From: Bradyrhizobium sp. Ash2021
Lineage (GTDB): Bacteria; Pseudomonadota; Alphaproteobacteria; Rhizobiales; Xanthobacteraceae
Assembly: GCF_031202265.1 (NCBI RefSeq)
Contig: NZ_CP100604.1
Coordinates: 6,864,501-6,928,500 of the forward strand
Reading direction: 5' to 3'
DNA length: 64,000 nt
The notes below the pieces were generated by a model. That model was not told where the DNA came from and made no database searches. It was given only the letters and a program-made list of their open reading frames with translations. Position 1 is the stretch's first letter; every line of letters begins with the position of its first letter. Shown here piece after piece: positions 6,230 to 20,407 of this stretch. A program made the position numbers and the translations under genes.

Positions 6230-7368
6230 TATGCGTTCTCCCTCTCCCTGCCGGCGACCTTCTCAAGCGCGCTTAGCACCGCGTCTCCCATTTGGACTGT
6301 CGAGAGTTTCTTCGCACCCGGCTCGGCGATATCGGCGGTTCGTGCGCCGGCGGCCAAGGCCGCGTCTACCGCCTTCTCAAGCAAATCCGCATCCTCGGGC
6401 CGATTCAGCGTCATGCGGAGCATCATTGCGACACTCAAGATCGAGCCGAGCGGATTGGCGATGCCTTTGCCTGCAATATCGGGCGCGCTGCCGTGAACCG
6501 GTTCATACAACGCCTTGCGTCGGCCGAATTTGTCCACTGGACCAAGCGAAGCCGACGGCAGCATGCCGAGCGAGCCAGACGCCATCGCGGCGCAATCGGA
6601 CAGGATGTCGCCGAAGATATTGCCGGTCACCATCACGTCGAACTGTGCGGGTTCGCGAACGATCTGCATAGCTGCGTTGTCGACATACAGATGGGTGAGC
6701 TCCACGTCGGAAAATTCTTCTCTATGCAAAGCGATAACTTCTTCACGCCATACCACACTGGTTTCAAGCACATTAGCCTTGTCCACCGAACAGACCTTGT
6801 TCCTGCGTGTACGCGCCAGTTCGAATGCCGACCGCGCCACGCGGCGAATTTGGTTGGTGGTGTATTGCTCGGTGTTGAAACCGCGCCGTTGCCCGTCGGC
6901 GAGCGTCTCGATGCCGCGCGGCTCTCCGAAATAGATGCCGCTGGTCAGTTCGCGAATGATGACAAAATCGACGCCTTTCAGCACATGCGCCTTGAGGGGC
7001 GCGGAATCCGATAGTGCCGGATTGGCAACGATGGGCCGCAAATTGGCGTAAAGATCGTATTTGCTTCGGAGCCCAAGCAAGCTGCCCGCCTTGCGCGCCG
7101 CCGCCGGCACCTCCTTGGTTTCGGGGCCACCGGTCGCGCCCCATACGATGGCGTCGGCCTCTTCCATCGCTTCGACAGTATCGTCCGGCAGCACCTTTCC
7201 GGTCGCCAGGTATGGGATGATGCCGTATTGCGCTTCGCGCATCGTCATGGGCACGCCACGTTTGGCGGTAAACCAGTTGAGAACCCGGTGCGACTGCGCC
7301 GTCACTTCGGGGCCGATGCCCTCGCCGCCGACTACGGCAACCTTGACCATGTTGGAGCGATTATTCAT
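6229..7368 (-). CDS. leuB: 3-isopropylmalate dehydrogenase paralogue
   Basis: The 379-residue protein has the full IPMDH pattern: DLYANLRPI (substrate arginines), RELTSGIYFGEPRG (about residues 134-147), DKANVLETSVVWREEV (catalytic lysine and aspartate region), VDNAAMQIV, VTGNIFGDILSD (Mg-binding aspartates) and LYEPVHGSAPDIAGKG. It oxidatively decarboxylates 3-isopropylmalate-like 2-hydroxy acids with NAD. The start at 7368 follows AAGGA seven bases upstream and overlaps the leuD stop by 4 bp. It sits between leuD and an ABC binding protein rather than in a leucine locus, and leuA is absent from the window, so a catabolic paralogue is possible. The residues visible do not separate that from the housekeeping enzyme. 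Confidence 0.88.
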   Translation of the reverse strand: MNNRSNMVKVAVVGGEGIGPEVTAQSHRVLNWFTAKRGVPMTMREAQYGIIPYLATGKVLPDDTVEAMEEADAIVWGATGGPETKEVPAAARKAGSLLGLRSKYDLYANLRPIVANPALSDSAPLKAHVLKGVDFVIIRELTSGIYFGEPRGIETLADGQRRGFNTEQYTTNQIRRVARSAFELARTRRNKVCSVDKANVLETSVVWREEVIALHREEFSDVELTHLYVDNAAMQIVREPAQFDVMVTGNIFGDILSDCAAMASGSLGMLPSASLGPVDKFGRRKALYEPVHGSAPDIAGKGIANPLGSILSVAMMLRMTLNRPEDADLLEKAVDAALAAGARTADIAEPGAKKLSTVQMGDAVLSALEKVAGRERENA

Positions 7369-8000
7369 GCCGATTTCCTTGTAAAATGGATCCATGGCCG
7401 CGCCTCGCGGTCGGAGGCCTGGAAGGCCCGGATTTCGTCGTCACGCTGCAGCGTTAACGCAACTTCATCGAGCCCTCGTAAGAGGCCCTCGCGACGACGC
7501 GGATCGATCTCGAAACTGTGCTTCTTGCCCGTTGGCGAAGTAATCGTCTGCCCCTCGAGATCGATGCCAATCCGCCCTGCGCCTTGGGTGATCTCTATTT
7601 CCGCGGCAAGGCCGTCGACAATCTCCTTGTCGACGACGATCGGGAGAATTCCGTTCTGGAAGCAGTTCGCAAAAAAAATGTCGCCGAATCCTGACCCGAT
7701 GATGGCACGAATGCCCATCTCCTGCAGCGACCATACGGCACCCTCACGAGAAGAGCCGCAGCCAAAATTCGGACCCGTGACGAGGATTTCAGCTCGTCGA
7801 TAAGGTTCGCGATTCAGGATGAATTCAGGATTTTCCGAACCATCGGGCAGATAACGGAGCGCGCCAAAGGCCCATTTGCCCAGCGTCCCGCGGACGGAAT
7901 TTCCAACCAGCCGCTCGATGCGGATGATAACGTCGGTGTCGATATTGCCGCGCATGATCGGTGCGGCGATCGCGGTCAGTTTGTTGAATGGCTTCGACAT
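7365..8000 (-). CDS. leuD: 3-isopropylmalate dehydratase small subunit paralogue
   Basis: The 211-residue product is the swivelling domain of isopropylmalate isomerase. It has IAAPIMRGNIDTDVIIR near the start, the substrate loop GPNFGCGSSREGAVW (about residues 74-88), GSGFGDIFFANCFQNGILP and a C-terminal DEIRAF helix. With the large subunit it moves a hydroxyl between the 2 and 3 positions of an alkylmalate. The start is the ATG at 8000, placed directly after the leuC stop (8002), and the 3' end overlaps leuB. The open frame extends upstream through leuC, but that part is a shadow. Confidence 0.88.
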   Translation of the reverse strand: MSKPFNKLTAIAAPIMRGNIDTDVIIRIERLVGNSVRGTLGKWAFGALRYLPDGSENPEFILNREPYRRAEILVTGPNFGCGSSREGAVWSLQEMGIRAIIGSGFGDIFFANCFQNGILPIVVDKEIVDGLAAEIEITQGAGRIGIDLEGQTITSPTGKKHSFEIDPRRREGLLRGLDEVALTLQRDDEIRAFQASDREARPWIHFTRKSA

Positions 8001-15527: not shown

Positions 15528-16547
15528 TCAGCCGCCCGAAAAGCGATTTCGGTACTCTGTGGGCGATACGCCGAGGTGCCGCAGGAACGCCCGCCGCATG
15601 CGCTCGTCGTCGCCGAAGCCGGCGCGTTTGGCCACCTCCACCACACCGCCGATTTGCCTGCTTTCCAGCAACAACCGCGCAGTTTCGACACGCAACGCCT
15701 CGACGCCGCTCGCCGGCGTCATGCCGGTACGGCTGGCGTAAGTGCGGGCGAAGGTCCGGGGCGTCATCCCGGCCTTTTCAGCGAGCGTCTCGACCTTGAG
15801 ATCGCTTGCGATGTTTTCGATGATCCAGGCGTGCAGTGCACTAAAACGCCCTTCGACGTCGGAGGCCTGCGCCGCGAGCACGGTAGAAAACTGGCTCTGA
15901 CCGCCAGGCCGCTTCAGAAAAACCACCAGTCTGCGCGCGACGTCGAGCGCGGTGGTATGGCCGAAATCCTCCTCGATCATGGCCAGCGCCAGGTCGATGC
16001 CGGCGCTGACACCGGCCGATGACCAGACCCGTCCGTCCTTGACGAAGATCGCATTCGGCTCGACGCGGATGTTGGGGAAGCTGTCCTGCAGTCTCGGGCA
16101 ATAGCGCCAATGGGTCGCGGCGCGCTTTCCATCCAGCACGCCGGTCCAGGCCAGCGCGAAAGCCCCGAGGCATACCGAGGCGACGCGGCGTGCCTTGGGC
16201 AGCGTCTGCGCAATCCACTTCATCAACTGGGCGTCTTTGCGCATTTCCCAGATGCCGGGGCCGCCCGGGATCACCAGCGTATCGACCTGGTGCGGCCGGA
16301 CGCTGTCGATCGGCGCGGTGTCCACCATCATGCCGACGTCTGTCGGCACCAGCCCGCCCGAGGTCGAGAGATATGACAGCGAATAGCCGGGGCCGGGTAG
16401 TTCGATCGCCTGCAACTCGGCGAACACCTGCGCCGGCCCGGAGATATCGAGCAGGGTTACTCCGGGGAAGGCGACGATCGCGATGCACCGCGTCAGCGTT
16501 TCTTCGCGCGGGTCGGGACGGCGGGATTTGGCAGATTTCGAGGGCAT
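15528..16547 (-). CDS. GlxA family transcriptional regulator (DJ-1/PfpI domain plus AraC HTH)
   Basis: The 339-residue product has an N-terminal DJ-1/PfpI-like domain (IAIVAFPGVTLLDISGPAQV at about 21-40, DTLVIPGGPGIWEM, and a nucleophile-elbow-like VASVCLGAFALA with cysteine) and a C-terminal AraC-type double HTH (LAEKAGMTPRTFARTYASRT, ARLLLESRQIGGVVEVAKRA, FLRHLGVSPTEYRNRF). The start at 16547 follows AAAGGA. It is divergent from the cluster at 16611-19714, with about 60 bp between the starts, so it most likely regulates that cluster. The ligand is unknown. Confidence 0.85.
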   Translation of the reverse strand: MPSKSAKSRRPDPREETLTRCIAIVAFPGVTLLDISGPAQVFAELQAIELPGPGYSLSYLSTSGGLVPTDVGMMVDTAPIDSVRPHQVDTLVIPGGPGIWEMRKDAQLMKWIAQTLPKARRVASVCLGAFALAWTGVLDGKRAATHWRYCPRLQDSFPNIRVEPNAIFVKDGRVWSSAGVSAGIDLALAMIEEDFGHTTALDVARRLVVFLKRPGGQSQFSTVLAAQASDVEGRFSALHAWIIENIASDLKVETLAEKAGMTPRTFARTYASRTGMTPASGVEALRVETARLLLESRQIGGVVEVAKRAGFGDDERMRRAFLRHLGVSPTEYRNRFSGG

Positions 16548-16610
16548 ATTGTCCTTTAAGCCATTCGAGCCTCGCCTGTATAGCTCACGATGGGTAACTG
16601 GAGTTCGGCC

Positions 16611-17324
16611 ATGTTGCGGAATCTGGGCAGCCAATGTCGGGCGATCACCTCGCCCTGGACGGATTGCGCAGTCTACAGTTTCCCTGACGCGTCACGCATC
16701 GCCGCCTCCGACCGGCAGCCGCTGATGGACGCCATGAACGGCATCATCGCCGTCAATTGGAAGGCGACGGAGCCGCACTGGACCGCAGCCTCCTCCCCAT
16801 TCGACAGCAAGTACAGCCTCATACTGGTCTACGACGGCTCCGGCCTGGTGGCGTTTTCAGTCTATCGCGTGCTGCAGATTTCGGGCGGGCTTGCGGTCTA
16901 CCGCAGCGGTACGGAGGTGCTTCCCGCCCACCAGGGCCGCGGCTTTTACGGTTTCTTTACCTCCGAAGTGCTGAAATGCTCCGGAGCCGCCCAGAAAGGC
17001 GACTGTAGCGTGCTCTACGGATGGCGGACACGAAATCCCATCGTATGGGCGGCTAACGCCAAGATCTGCGAAAAGGTGACACCCTCGCTGCTTGGCGACG
17101 CGCAGGATCCCGCATTGCAAGCGGCCTGCGTCGAATTGTGCTCGTCGCTTTATCCGGGCAAGCCACTCGAAGTGCCCGGCATGATCATGCGGGGCGCCTA
17201 TGGCCATATCGAGCATCATCGGCAGACCTACTATGGCACGGCGTCGCTGGTCGATGCCGCGATGTCCCGCATGATTCCAAATTCAGCGGATGCCCTGTTC
17301 TCGGTCGGCTATGCGAGGGTGTGA
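16611..17324 (+). CDS. Putative acetyltransferase-like protein of the YqcI/YcgG cluster
   Basis: The 237-residue product shows a GNAT-like core in its middle: strands YSLILVYDGSGLVAFSVYR, then VYRSGTEVLPAHQGRGFYGF, where QGRGFYG fits the acetyl-CoA loop Q/R-x-x-G-x-G/A, and a later GWRTRNPIVWAANAKI helix. The C-terminal 70 residues (from CVELCSSLYPGKPLEV) match nothing I know. The start at 16611 follows GGAG; an ATG at 16590 is the alternative. The stop overlaps the next start (TGATG), so it is coupled to the MFS gene. The fold assignment is tentative; it may transfer an acyl group onto the cluster product. Confidence 0.55.
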   Translation: MLRNLGSQCRAITSPWTDCAVYSFPDASRIAASDRQPLMDAMNGIIAVNWKATEPHWTAASSPFDSKYSLILVYDGSGLVAFSVYRVLQISGGLAVYRSGTEVLPAHQGRGFYGFFTSEVLKCSGAAQKGDCSVLYGWRTRNPIVWAANAKICEKVTPSLLGDAQDPALQAACVELCSSLYPGKPLEVPGMIMRGAYGHIEHHRQTYYGTASLVDAAMSRMIPNSADALFSVGYARV

Positions 17325-18616
17325 TGTCGATGCTTGGACAACAAGCCGTGTTCGCTCCGACCTCCCGGTTCGCTGATCGTGCCTATCTGGCCTGGGGGAC
17401 GGTGGCCACCGCTTACGCGATCGCATTCCTGCAACGGGTATCGCCGCAATCGGTCAGCCTCAACTTCATGCACGACTTCAGCACCGACGCCGCGGGCGTC
17501 GCGATGCTCGCCTCCAGTTATTTCTGGGGCTACACCTTGATGCAGATTCCGGCGGGCCTTCTGGTCGACCGCTATGGCGTCAAGCGGGTGGTGCTGTGCA
17601 GCATGGCGGCATCTTCGCTGGGGAGTGCCGCATTTGCGCTGGCGCCGAACCTGCTGGACGTTTTTGCGGCCCGCCTCATCGTCGCCTGCGGAGACGCGCT
17701 CGTCTTCACCGCGCTGTTGAAGCTTGTCGCACTGAGCTTCACCGACGAGCGGTTCGGGGTTATGTCTGGCATCTCGCAGGTGTCGGGCTACGTCGGCGGC
17801 GTCCTCGCGACAACGCCGCTCGCGGCGGCGGTGACGGGTTTTGGCTGGCGCGCCTGTTTCCTGTTCATCGCCGGCGTTGGTCTGGCCAACCTTGCTTTCG
17901 CCAAGGTCACGCTGAAACCTGATCCGGCGCCGCGCAGCAACAAGACGCTGAAAAGCGTTGTCGTCGCTGCCCGGCAATCCCTGTCGCATATCGCGAACTG
18001 GGGCTGCGCCATGACCTTTGCGTCCCACTTCGCGGTTGTGACGACGTTGTCCGGCGTCTGGGGCATTCCGATGGTGGCGCATTTCTTCAATATCTCTCCG
18101 ACGGCGGCAGGAACTCCCCTGCTCGCCTTCATGATCGGCAATGCGGTCGGCTCGATCTTTCTTGGCCACGCCGCCGACCGTGCGGCGGCTGCACTCGACG
18201 GCGCGCTGATCCGCATCTGTTCGCTGCGGATGATCCTGATTGCGATGCTGCTGCCACCGGTCGCGCATGCGTTCGGCCTCGTCTATGTCACCATCGTGTT
18301 CACCGCACTCGGGCTTGTCGCCGGCGGGACGGTACCGCTCGTGCTGAAATGCACCAAGAAGCTTTACACCGCGGACCTCATCGGCGTTGGCGCGTCGGTA
18401 AATACGACAGCGGCGGGAATTTTCGCAGGCATCTCGCAGCCTGTCATCGGGTTCGCCATGGTTGCCGCCAGCCGATTTGCTGCAACCGACGCAACCCAAG
18501 GTCCAGCGGCAATCGGCGACGCCGGCTATGGCATCCTGATCGGAATTCTGCTGCTGATGTCGCTGCCGGGTATCGCCGGACCGTTATTGATGAGAGGCAA
18601 ATTGATAATTCGTTAG
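17324..18616 (+). CDS. Major facilitator superfamily transporter
   Basis: The 430-residue product has about twelve membrane segments and the MFS loop 2-3 motif GLLVDRYGVKRVVL (about residues 81-94). The second half repeats the pattern with GHAADRAAAALDG. The first helix starts AWGTVATAYAIAFLQRVSPQ, typical of the nitrate/sugar-phosphate-like MFS branch. I chose the ATG at 17324, which shares a base with the preceding stop; the longer open frame upstream is a shadow of that gene. It would import the precursor or export the product of the cluster. Confidence 0.88.
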   Translation: MSMLGQQAVFAPTSRFADRAYLAWGTVATAYAIAFLQRVSPQSVSLNFMHDFSTDAAGVAMLASSYFWGYTLMQIPAGLLVDRYGVKRVVLCSMAASSLGSAAFALAPNLLDVFAARLIVACGDALVFTALLKLVALSFTDERFGVMSGISQVSGYVGGVLATTPLAAAVTGFGWRACFLFIAGVGLANLAFAKVTLKPDPAPRSNKTLKSVVVAARQSLSHIANWGCAMTFASHFAVVTTLSGVWGIPMVAHFFNISPTAAGTPLLAFMIGNAVGSIFLGHAADRAAAALDGALIRICSLRMILIAMLLPPVAHAFGLVYVTIVFTALGLVAGGTVPLVLKCTKKLYTADLIGVGASVNTTAAGIFAGISQPVIGFAMVAASRFAATDATQGPAAIGDAGYGILIGILLLMSLPGIAGPLLMRGKLIIR

Positions 18617-18641
18617 TCACGTTAAACTTACAGGGGGCATT

Positions 18642-19397
18642 ATGGAGCGCTTGTTTTTAAGAAAAGGGGACGTTGCTTCGACGTATCCAGTGAGCAGCTG
18701 GCAATGCGTGATGTTCTCTGAATTCGAAGCGCAGATGAGCAGCGAGGCGCGGCCCTTTCCCTGTGTTTTCGGCGTTGCCGGCCATCGCCAGGACCAGTTG
18801 CGCTATTTGTTCCTTGACCCCTATGACGTCGAAGTGCTCGGCGTTCAACTCGCGCAATATGTTTCCGAATCCAGATCATATGGACCCAACACATCGCTGA
18901 TCGTGTTTACAAGGCCACGCCCGGTGCAGACGCTCGACGCCTATTATCGCAAGATGTGGCTGACGCTCGACCAGCTGGCGCGACTCGACAAGAGCCCGTG
19001 GCCCGAGGAGATTCCCGAACAGATCGATCATCCGATGTGGGAGTTCTCGTTCGCAGGGGAGCCGATCTTCGTCGTCTGCACGACGCCCGCACATGTGATG
19101 CGGCAGAGCCGCCGATCAAGCGCTTTCATGCTTACCTTCCAGCCACGATGGGTGTTTGAGAAGATTCTTGGAACCGAGAAGGCTGCCAATGCCGCGTTCG
19201 CGGAAGTGCGCAAACGGCTAATTCCCTACGACAGCGCGAGTCCCTCGCCGCACCTCGGACGTTACGGCGCGACCGACGGACGCGAGTACCAGCAATACTT
19301 CCTGCATGACGACAATCAGGTGGCGGGCGGCTGTCCTTTTGCCAAGCTCGCACAAACGAAGACGGCTCACATCGAAAACAAGGAGCAAGCGGCATGA
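18642..19397 (+). CDS. YqcI/YcgG family protein, putative heme-dependent N-oxygenase
   Basis: The 251-residue product carries family landmarks of YqcI/YcgG (PF08892): FPCVFGVAGHRQDQLRY near residue 38, a central WPEEIPEQIDHPMWEFSFAG, PIFVVCTTPAHVMRQSRR, and a C-terminal REYQQYFLHDD followed by GGCPFAKL. From memory, members such as GntA of guanitoxin biosynthesis are heme-dependent N-hydroxylases of amine or guanidine substrates, so this may N-hydroxylate an amino-acid-derived amine. AGGGGG precedes the ATG; the stop overlaps the cupin start by 4 bp. The exact substrate is not readable. Family assignment is good, function is inferred. Confidence 0.8.
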   Translation: MERLFLRKGDVASTYPVSSWQCVMFSEFEAQMSSEARPFPCVFGVAGHRQDQLRYLFLDPYDVEVLGVQLAQYVSESRSYGPNTSLIVFTRPRPVQTLDAYYRKMWLTLDQLARLDKSPWPEEIPEQIDHPMWEFSFAGEPIFVVCTTPAHVMRQSRRSSAFMLTFQPRWVFEKILGTEKAANAAFAEVRKRLIPYDSASPSPHLGRYGATDGREYQQYFLHDDNQVAGGCPFAKLAQTKTAHIENKEQAA

Positions 19398-19714
19398 CCC
19401 AGATCATCGAAGGTCACAAGACCGAATTTGCCATCGATCCCGCAATCCTGAACCTGCTCCCGGAGCAGGGCAGTATCGAATTGCAGCACGACGCTGCGGG
19501 CAAGGTACACCGCTTCCACACCCATCCCGTGGACGAGATCCTGGTGATCATCAGCGGCAGGCTGAACTTCATGTGGGACGGCGGCCAGCGCATCGTCGGC
19601 GCCGGCGACACCATCCTGCTGCCCGCCGGTACGCTTCACCAATCCGAAGCGCTGGAGGGCGGCGCGGTCTATGCGATCGCGACGCGCCCGCCCGCCAATC
19701 CAATCAGCAACTGA
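19394..19714 (+). CDS. Small single-domain cupin
   Basis: The 106-residue product has cupin motif 1 as HRFHTHPVDEILVIISGRL (two histidines and a glutamate as metal ligands, about residues 38-56) and motif 2 as GDTILLPAGTLHQSEAL (third histidine). It starts inside the ATGA overlap with the YqcI/YcgG gene. Such stand-alone cupins act as metal-dependent isomerases, oxygenases or sensors. Strict coupling to a putative N-oxygenase suggests it processes or binds the N-oxidised product. No signal peptide is seen. Confidence 0.82.
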   Translation: MTQIIEGHKTEFAIDPAILNLLPEQGSIELQHDAAGKVHRFHTHPVDEILVIISGRLNFMWDGGQRIVGAGDTILLPAGTLHQSEALEGGAVYAIATRPPANPISN

Positions 19715-19745: not shown

Positions 19746-19931
19746 TCAAGACAATGAGGGATCGCTCGGCGACGGGTCAGTCGCCAAACGTTCGACCAGT
19801 TCAATGATTTCGGAACGCTGGTCGGGCGCAAGTTTGAGGAAAGCCTTCAACAGCCGCAGGCTTTCCACGGTTTCGCTCGATGGAGCTCCGAGTTTCTTCT
19901 GCAGCTCTGCAACATATGTGGGATTTTTCAT
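19746..19931 (-). CDS. Conserved small helical protein
   Basis: The 61-residue product MKNPTYVAELQKKLGAPSSE... continues TVESLRLLKAFLKLAPDQRS, a compact all-helical pattern. The start at 19931 follows AAGGTG. I recall similar proteins in Bradyrhizobium without known function. It converges on the cupin gene. Its start lies only 25 bp from the divergent gene at 19957, so the two leaders must overlap. Confidence 0.55.
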   Translation of the reverse strand: MKNPTYVAELQKKLGAPSSETVESLRLLKAFLKLAPDQRSEIIELVERLATDPSPSDPSLS

Positions 19932-19956: not shown

Positions 19957-20142
19957 ATGGCATACCCAGGTAAACGTGAGGGCTTGGCCCAGAGAGTCGA
20001 TACCGCAGCGCAGGAGGCCGAACGTCTCGGCCTGACGACAGCTACCTTGATACTTCGTATGGCTCGCCTCGAGATTGACCGGGCGGAACCCGACGAAGTT
20101 GAAAGTATGCCAAGGAACAACCTGCGCAGCAAGCCGAACTGA
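19957..20142 (+). CDS. Small helical protein, function unknown
   Basis: The 61-residue product MAYPGKREGLAQRVDTAAQE then AERLGLTTATLILRMARLEI is predicted helical, with an acidic middle and a basic tail. A purine-rich GAGGAACAGGA precedes the ATG. It is head-to-head with the gene ending at 19746. No domain is recognised. Confidence 0.48.
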   Translation: MAYPGKREGLAQRVDTAAQEAERLGLTTATLILRMARLEIDRAEPDEVESMPRNNLRSKPN

Positions 20143-20407
20143 ACGGCCGAAACGGCCCGATTTGGCTCTCTGAACAACGGTTTGCGGTATTAGCGTAACA
20201 TCCCGGGATGGTCTGAAAGGCCCATACCCGGCGGTGTGCGTCCGCTATCGGGCGGGTGTTCGCAATTGCAGGGAGGTCGGCGCGATCGTTTCCCGCAAGG
20301 CGCGGCCCGTTGACAGGCTCGGGGATCACCGGCGAATGGCGCGGAAGCTTCCATCGGAAGGATGGCGACGGATTGCGCTTGCGCTAGTCAACCCAGCCAG
20401 CCTCCCG

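Follow-up and report, generated by a model that had tools for sequence, protein, structure and literature searches.

A gene cluster at positions 15528-19714 of a 64,000-nucleotide stretch of the 9.7-Mb genome of Bradyrhizobium sp. Ash2021 (contig NZ_CP100604.1, 6,864,501 to 6,928,500; the whole stretch is referred to as the window, and coordinates are counted from its first letter) encodes a YqcI/YcgG-family protein and a small cupin, which together are the conserved core of a wider set of loci. Judged from sequence, the cluster has an even chance of being a compact two-enzyme module for the formation of a nitrogen-nitrogen (N-N) bond, which different lineages would equip with tailoring, export and regulatory genes of their own. 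The YqcI protein quite probably performs the first step, the N-hydroxylation of the guanidine group of arginine; the case for both steps, heme N-oxygenation and then N-N bond formation on the cupin, appears evenly balanced, and that a graminine-like product is exported is suggested more tentatively. The YqcI gene (18642..19397, plus strand) is predicted to encode a thiolate-heme guanidine N-oxygenase; it overlaps by ATGA with the gene for a mono-cupin of 106 residues (19394..19714, plus strand; Cupin_2, 41 bits), called mini-cupin in the following.

With a profile built from ten YqcI proteins, each of them adjoining a cupin, one genome per species was scanned, and the best 80 of 191 relatives were used to count accessory genes. 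At all 80 loci, a cupin follows YqcI directly on the same strand or is fused to it; because the scan was seeded with cupin-linked proteins, this count describes a clade and not the whole PF08892 family. The first-pass annotation, made from the letters of the window, had proposed a functional set of four genes: a putative acyltransferase, a major facilitator superfamily (MFS) transporter, YqcI and the cupin. The YqcI-cupin half of this proposal holds throughout the clade, whereas the acyltransferase-like and MFS genes are present in 47 of the 80 loci only and were ruled out as part of the core.

The two proteins are also joined physically. YqcI and cupin lie in one frame at all four Bacillus/Sutcliffiella loci among the best 80, and when one fusion protein was compared with 5.8 billion proteins, 599 matches were obtained, 120 of which were listed: among the matches listed, 71 of 114 new proteins bear both domains according to the YqcI and cupin profiles, with a linker of fewer than 20 residues in 66, and the fusions include proteins named Sutcliffiella, Paenibacillus, Undibacterium and Acetobacteraceae. 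Natural fusions measure 350-370 residues. At least four changes between fusion and adjacency are required on a tree of 91 rows, many of whose branches have weak support. YqcI and cupin have correlated pairwise tree distances, with r 0.82 (33 pairs) and, without the Bacillus group, r 0.74 (30 pairs), in both cases exceeding all 5000 permutations, values that are inflated by shared species history.

Evidence for the first step comes from the family and from individual residues. The YqcI protein scores 220.3 bits with PF08892, for which the curated cut-off is 27, and a sequence search for solved relatives found only structures of AglA (E 3e-30 to 7e-30), a Cys44-ligated heme enzyme that hydroxylates the guanidine of arginine (PMC12866846; this and all other papers given by PMC number are cited from excerpts). 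Cys41 (codon 18762..18764, plus strand), which aligns with AglA Cys44 and is the predicted axial heme ligand, is kept in all 33 aligned relatives; a loss of the heme ligand, which the first-pass annotation had named as an argument against its own reading, is thus not seen. The substrate-gate residues Phe143, Arg169 and Phe172 (AglA Phe152, Arg179 and Phe182) are present in 33/33 rows of the clade, as are Arg157, Gln167 and Gln218 (AglA Arg166, Gln177 and Gln228), while Arg190 (AglA Arg200) is found in 29 of 33. Among the residues that contact the heme carboxylates in AglA (Arg166, Lys196 and Arg200), both arginines have their equivalents in Arg157 and Arg190, and the lysine is replaced by Phe186, at a position that varies in other clades too. 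The cysteine-ligated heme enzyme would act on free L-arginine and hydroxylate its guanidine at N-delta, with N-omega as a probable second site. A study from 2010 had already placed YqcI/YcgG beside oxygenase-cupin proteins in operons of nonribosomal peptide synthetases (NRPS), with the cysteine guessed to be an anchor (PMC2922099); another heme family, that of KinJ (PMC12154649), was set aside.

For the second step, the cupin offers a residue-level match to SznF of streptozotocin biosynthesis. In an alignment, the candidate metal ligands His42 and His44 (codons 19517..19525, plus strand) and His82 (19637..19639, plus strand) are the equivalents of SznF His407, His409 and His448, and Tyr93 (19670..19672, plus strand) is that of Tyr459; the predicted model of the cupin has a predicted local distance difference test score (pLDDT) of 89, and the profile alignment of the mini-cupin to 6m9r covers 405-461. 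His42 occurs in 34/34 mini-cupins, His44 and His82 in 33/34 each, and a family signature of P23, G26, E29, Q31, D33, H39, H42 and E48 is invariant in 34 rows. The match of three histidines is weak on its own, because many cupins share such ligands. The tyrosine is more selective: it is present in 34/34 mini-cupins, 69/71 fused cupins and MobE, and in 0/29 other cupins of the same genome. In SznF, Tyr459 takes part in proton transfer (PMC11705231) and, with the three histidines, is reported to be essential for N-N bond formation. Sequence and fold lists for the mini-cupin include SznF, but tied with or beneath other cupins, and the protein, whether it stands alone or is fused to YqcI, has no heme-oxygenase-like diiron (HDO) domain; because that domain is absent, it was not filed as an SznF-family protein. 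Two variants may be mentioned here: at a Phycocomes locus (2302-2616 of L140) the cupin is without two of the three metal histidines (equivalents of H44N and H82R), and YqcI and a permease are retained; and in a 513-residue YqcI fusion (P0130) the score with the cupin profile comes from more than one stretch, and the one aligned has Phe at the position of the conserved Tyr.

These residues, the fusions and the precedents suggest the following scheme. The mini-cupin may bind a metal through His42, His44 and His82, plus Glu48, and an oxidative rearrangement of the hydroxylated guanidine, assisted by Tyr93 and similar to that on the SznF cupin, could join N-delta and N-omega. Starting from unmethylated arginine, the result would be a graminine-like N-nitroso-hydroxylamino acid. 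Acylation of the product may be the task of the GNAT protein in Bradyrhizobium, and its export that of the MFS protein; a nitrogen compound is a possible signal for the GlxA-type regulator. Other lineages would rely for tailoring and export on an amino-acid permease, a LysE exporter or an ATP-grasp amino-acid ligase. YqcI and mini-cupin could, although we put this forward with some reserve, form a self-contained, NRPS-independent cassette that converts free L-arginine to graminine or a close relative, which is then exported free, acetylated or ligated. The first-pass annotation had guessed at N-oxidation and then a metal-dependent rearrangement or N-N chemistry; the residue-level match of the cupin to SznF now lends this some support, and the guess is better founded than its basis allowed, but the pair has precedent. 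Overall, the earlier interpretation is partly supported.

Other readings compete with this route from free arginine to an N-N product. The rival that survives best, which we consider unlikely, is that YqcI makes N-hydroxyarginine or an N-hydroxyguanidine and that the cupin hydrolyses or cleaves it without N-N chemistry; the result of this cleavage, for example hydroxyurea or hydroxyguanidine plus ornithine, would leave the cell and serve as a simple antimetabolite or signal. By structure, the cupin is not tied specifically to SznF, and a LysE exporter or an amino-acid permease also adjoins YqcI genes without a mini-cupin, so that hydroxylated arginine may be the end product in parts of the family; the residues and family of YqcI agree with this reading too. 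What speaks for N-N chemistry is that the equivalent of SznF Tyr459 is near-invariant and missing from the 29 other cupins, and that three known pathways pair their YqcI enzyme with an SznF-related cupin protein.

Less probable still is another amine or guanidine as the substrate (for example agmatine, an amino-acid amide or a dipeptide), with the quartet serving for tailoring or self-protection and the GNAT protein coming first. The substrate of AglA is arginine linked to aminomethylphosphonate, and free arginine is hardly turned over (PMC12866846), ATP-grasp ligase genes stand upstream of YqcI in the operons of Bartonella and Xenorhabdus, and the GNAT-fold gene does so in Bradyrhizobium. However, the lysines that hold the phosphonate in AglA (Lys196 and Lys225) are not conserved: in the window protein they are replaced by Phe186 and Glu215, the latter present in 33/33 rows of the clade, and the exchange K225E enables AglA to hydroxylate free arginine at N-delta, the new Glu anchoring the amino group (PMC12866846). 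As a marker of free-arginine specificity Glu215 is nevertheless a weak pointer, because 17/21 rows of another clade have Glu as well. A single small substrate would also fit the constancy of the YqcI-cupin pair among differing accessory genes. A catabolic or detoxification module, with uptake of a guanidino compound by a permease, oxidation by YqcI and breakdown by the cupin, appears the least probable of all: amino-acid permeases and Lrp-type regulators are as usual for uptake as for export, but LysE, MFS, GNAT or ligase accessories are more typical of export and tailoring (in a survey of neighbours that was not systematic), and the characterised family members named in the excerpts of PMC12866846 are biosynthetic.

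Returning to the proposed N-N module, its Bradyrhizobium form, the quartet, is best read as a functional unit on the strength of its conservation. In the genus survey, the YqcI protein was matched in 67/265 genomes (E 1e-10), 62 of the 67 at 73-100% identity, the window included; the closest named match is from Bradyrhizobium erythrophlei (99% identity). Matches were found in 7/296 genomes of the wider family, all of one genus, and in 4/385 genomes of the class (E 1e-6), namely the window's own and three from one other genus. Acyltransferase-like, MFS, YqcI and cupin genes are present on the same strand in 34/34 close-orthologue Bradyrhizobium loci (the window and 33 others fetched from the genus and family surveys, with flanks that take in only the 3' end of the acyltransferase-like gene), and the same set was seen in seven loci viewed further and in nine longer ones, sets that overlap each other. 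Gluconacetobacter asukensis retains the whole arrangement, with the divergent GlxA gene, at 48-60% identity, and in a divergent genome of the same genus (L063) the order is YqcI-cupin-acyltransferase-MFS, at 37-47% identity. It is this persistence through divergence and reordering that points to a functional unit; co-conservation in relatives had been named beforehand as the test of the quartet. In L063, a single-contig genome, the YqcI gene is split over two frames by an apparent frameshift (6917-7853), which may reflect decay or a sequencing error.

The accessory genes of the 80 loci fall into four classes: (i) the arrangement of the window, with a GlxA-type regulator divergently adjacent to acyltransferase-like and MFS genes (47/80); (ii) an amino-acid permease (22/80), in 21 of the 22 with an Lrp-type regulator; (iii) an ATP-grasp amino-acid ligase and a second recurrent protein (7/80; four Bartonella, Xenorhabdus, Allorhizobium and a Rhodobacter metagenome-assembled genome), the second protein looking like a transporter, with no Pfam match in the one example scanned; and (iv) a LysE exporter beside fused YqcI and cupin (4/80; Bacillus/Sutcliffiella). 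AA_permease_2, AsnC/Lrp, LysE and ATP-grasp were confirmed by Pfam in the examples scanned, and the Xenorhabdus ligase matches an L-amino-acid ligase structure (E 5e-40). Annotated plasmids carry Lrp-YqcI-cupin-permease in Thioclava and strain SC52 and YqcI-cupin-permease in Leisingera, and a Rhodoferax plasmid has a YqcI-cupin fusion beside a permease and LysE. The cassette is distributed over Alpha-, Beta- and Gammaproteobacteria and relatives of Bacillus, with about a quarter of the surveyed Bradyrhizobium genomes among its carriers. On an Acetobacter pasteurianus plasmid (4102-6843 of L188), an IS1380 element lies between two YqcI pieces, followed by an unannotated cupin of the mini-cupin family.

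The association has its limits, and a mini-cupin partner for every PF08892 gene is ruled out by loci that are negative for the mini-cupin profile. PF08892 genes occur in 22/398 genomes of the phylum, the window's included. The profile (E 10) found no match within 1.5-kb flanks at 22/22 other proteobacterial PF08892 loci (one of which, L175, matches the Pfam family and not the YqcI profile), and none for 8/8 distinct divergent YqcI genes (seven genes at six same-genus loci, and MobF); plasmid loci of Haladaptatus and Priestia and loci of Parageobacillus, Priestia filamentosa, Mesorhizobium and Nonomuraea gave no match either. Thirty loci matched the YqcI profile in 18 genomes of the family to which one Bacillus horikoshii genome belongs: 11 have the cupin fused and score 333-347 bits, and the other 19 score 174-240 bits and have no cupin match (E 0.01, 1.5-kb flanks). 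This boundary concerns the mini-cupin family only, because the profile is blind to SznF-like cupins such as that of MobE, which it misses although MobE adjoins the YqcI domain. Cupins on the opposite strand were seen in Priestia filamentosa (an annotated cupin of another kind, ~650 bases from YqcI) and in Pantoea (~1.4 kb from YqcI, with a weak mini-cupin-profile match of 18 bits, E 9e-5). A profile-negative Mesorhizobium plasmid cluster (1-9264 of L225) has an arginine flavour, with a divergent YqcI, an argininosuccinate-synthase-related gene, a 2-oxoglutarate/iron (2OG-Fe) dioxygenase, an amino-acid permease and a radical SAM protein. Three actinobacterial YqcI proteins (P0201, P0227 and P0230) bear an MbtH-like domain (PF03621), which points to NRPS pathways for that branch. 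In Bacillus subtilis, ycgF (LysE), ycgG, ycgH (permease) and ycgI (cupin) are presumably grouped.

The remaining genes of the window's cluster complete a layout that, from the reading-frame list and a Pfam scan, is as the first-pass annotation had described it, overlaps included. The GlxA-type transcription regulator (15528..16547, minus strand; DJ-1/PfpI and AraC helix-turn-helix domains, from Pfam DJ-1_PfpI and HTH_18) is divergent from the plus-strand quartet, and the first gene of the quartet (16611..17324, plus strand; alternative ATG at 16590) encodes a GNAT-fold protein, a putative N-acyltransferase: Pfam and NCBIfam searches at E 0.01 gave no match and the PDB no notable sequence match, and the predicted model has a GNAT fold, with GNAT proteins as best rows in Foldseek and VIA-align. 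A TGATG overlap leads to the MFS transporter (17324..18616, plus strand; PF07690, 113 bits), which reaches the NCBIfam cut-off of no specific subfamily, and 25 bases separate it from YqcI. The YqcI gene has a GC content of 0.577, compared with 0.616-0.655 for the rest of the quartet and three neighbours. Scans for promoters and terminators at the cluster gave no signal clearly exceeding shuffles, and none of the reading frames listed for 12.5-24 kb of the window resembles an NRPS. The GlxA-type protein, which presumably resembles Pseudomonas ArgR, was considered as a possible arginine sensor; in the PDB it matches AdpA and ThiJ/PfpI proteins of a general kind. Between the cupin and a CoA-transferase gene lie small reading frames at 19746-19931 (minus strand) and ~19958-20143 (plus strand); the translated sequence of this region 3' of the cupin is conserved across many Bradyrhizobium loci, and the minus-strand frame has no Pfam match.

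The graminine-type cupin step has not yet been reconstituted with a heme partner in the papers seen, and the 106-residue mini-cupin and the natural YqcI-cupin fusions are small objects on which it could be tested. If the proposal is true, the product would be a photolabile donor of nitric oxide (NO) and a metal ligand, and NO-releasing N-N amino acids, instead of being a rare siderophore building block, would commonly be made as free products by bacteria from soil and the sea and by those associated with plants or animals. For genome mining, PF08892 with a downstream or fused cupin that bears the signature P-G-E-Q-D / H..H.H...E / H...Y would then be a simple marker.

In the open-licence PMC literature, no paper was found on a stand-alone or fused mini-cupin partner of YqcI. 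The first-pass annotation knew of no described pathway with this gene set; GrbE/GrbD and ChmN/ChmM, which produce graminine or have been proposed to do so, are precedents for the logic of the pair. GntA of guanitoxin biosynthesis, with which the YqcI protein had been compared, belongs to the same Pfam family; the protein is not a GntA, as it reaches 55.6 bits with the NCBIfam equivalog model NF041366 against a cut-off of 145. AglA (argolaphos) shares the PF08892 family, the heme cysteine and the gate residues, and differs in its phosphonate-linked arginine substrate; no cupin step is described for it in the excerpts of PMC12866846. SznF/StzF (streptozotocin) has the three histidines and the tyrosine in common with the mini-cupin, but it hydroxylates with a diiron domain instead of heme, uses methylated arginine and shows ~22% identity in the cupin. 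In chalkophomycin biosynthesis, the heme arginine N-oxygenase ChmN yields N-delta-hydroxy- and dihydroxyarginine, and the cupin of its partner ChmM keeps the three histidines (PMC10849742); ChmM, in contrast to the mini-cupin, is homologous to SznF, has a degenerate diiron domain and belongs to a context of NRPS and polyketide synthase (PKS) genes; it was inactive in vitro after purification. ChmN is likened to the window YqcI by description. The closest likeness is to GrbE (YqcI-type) and GrbD (SznF-related), which are essential for graminine, derived from arginine (PMC9679993), and to their relatives MobF and MobE of tistrellabactin biosynthesis in Tistrella (PMC10391617): like the pair proposed for the window, they combine a YqcI-type arginine hydroxylase with an SznF-related cupin protein. 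These pairs, unlike that of the window, reside in NRPS siderophore clusters; MobE has 627 residues and aligns to SznF over ~420 of them, compared with 106 residues for the mini-cupin, the window YqcI and the MobF domain share ~34% identity, and papers disagree on whether the likeness of GrbD to SznF is confined to the cupin or extends to the diiron domain. Tistrella mobilis holds both a MobF/MobE system (L057) and a pair of the window type (L124). From its sequence, the window pair is filed as a putative compact variant of the GrbE/GrbD kind of system, outside the SznF protein family.

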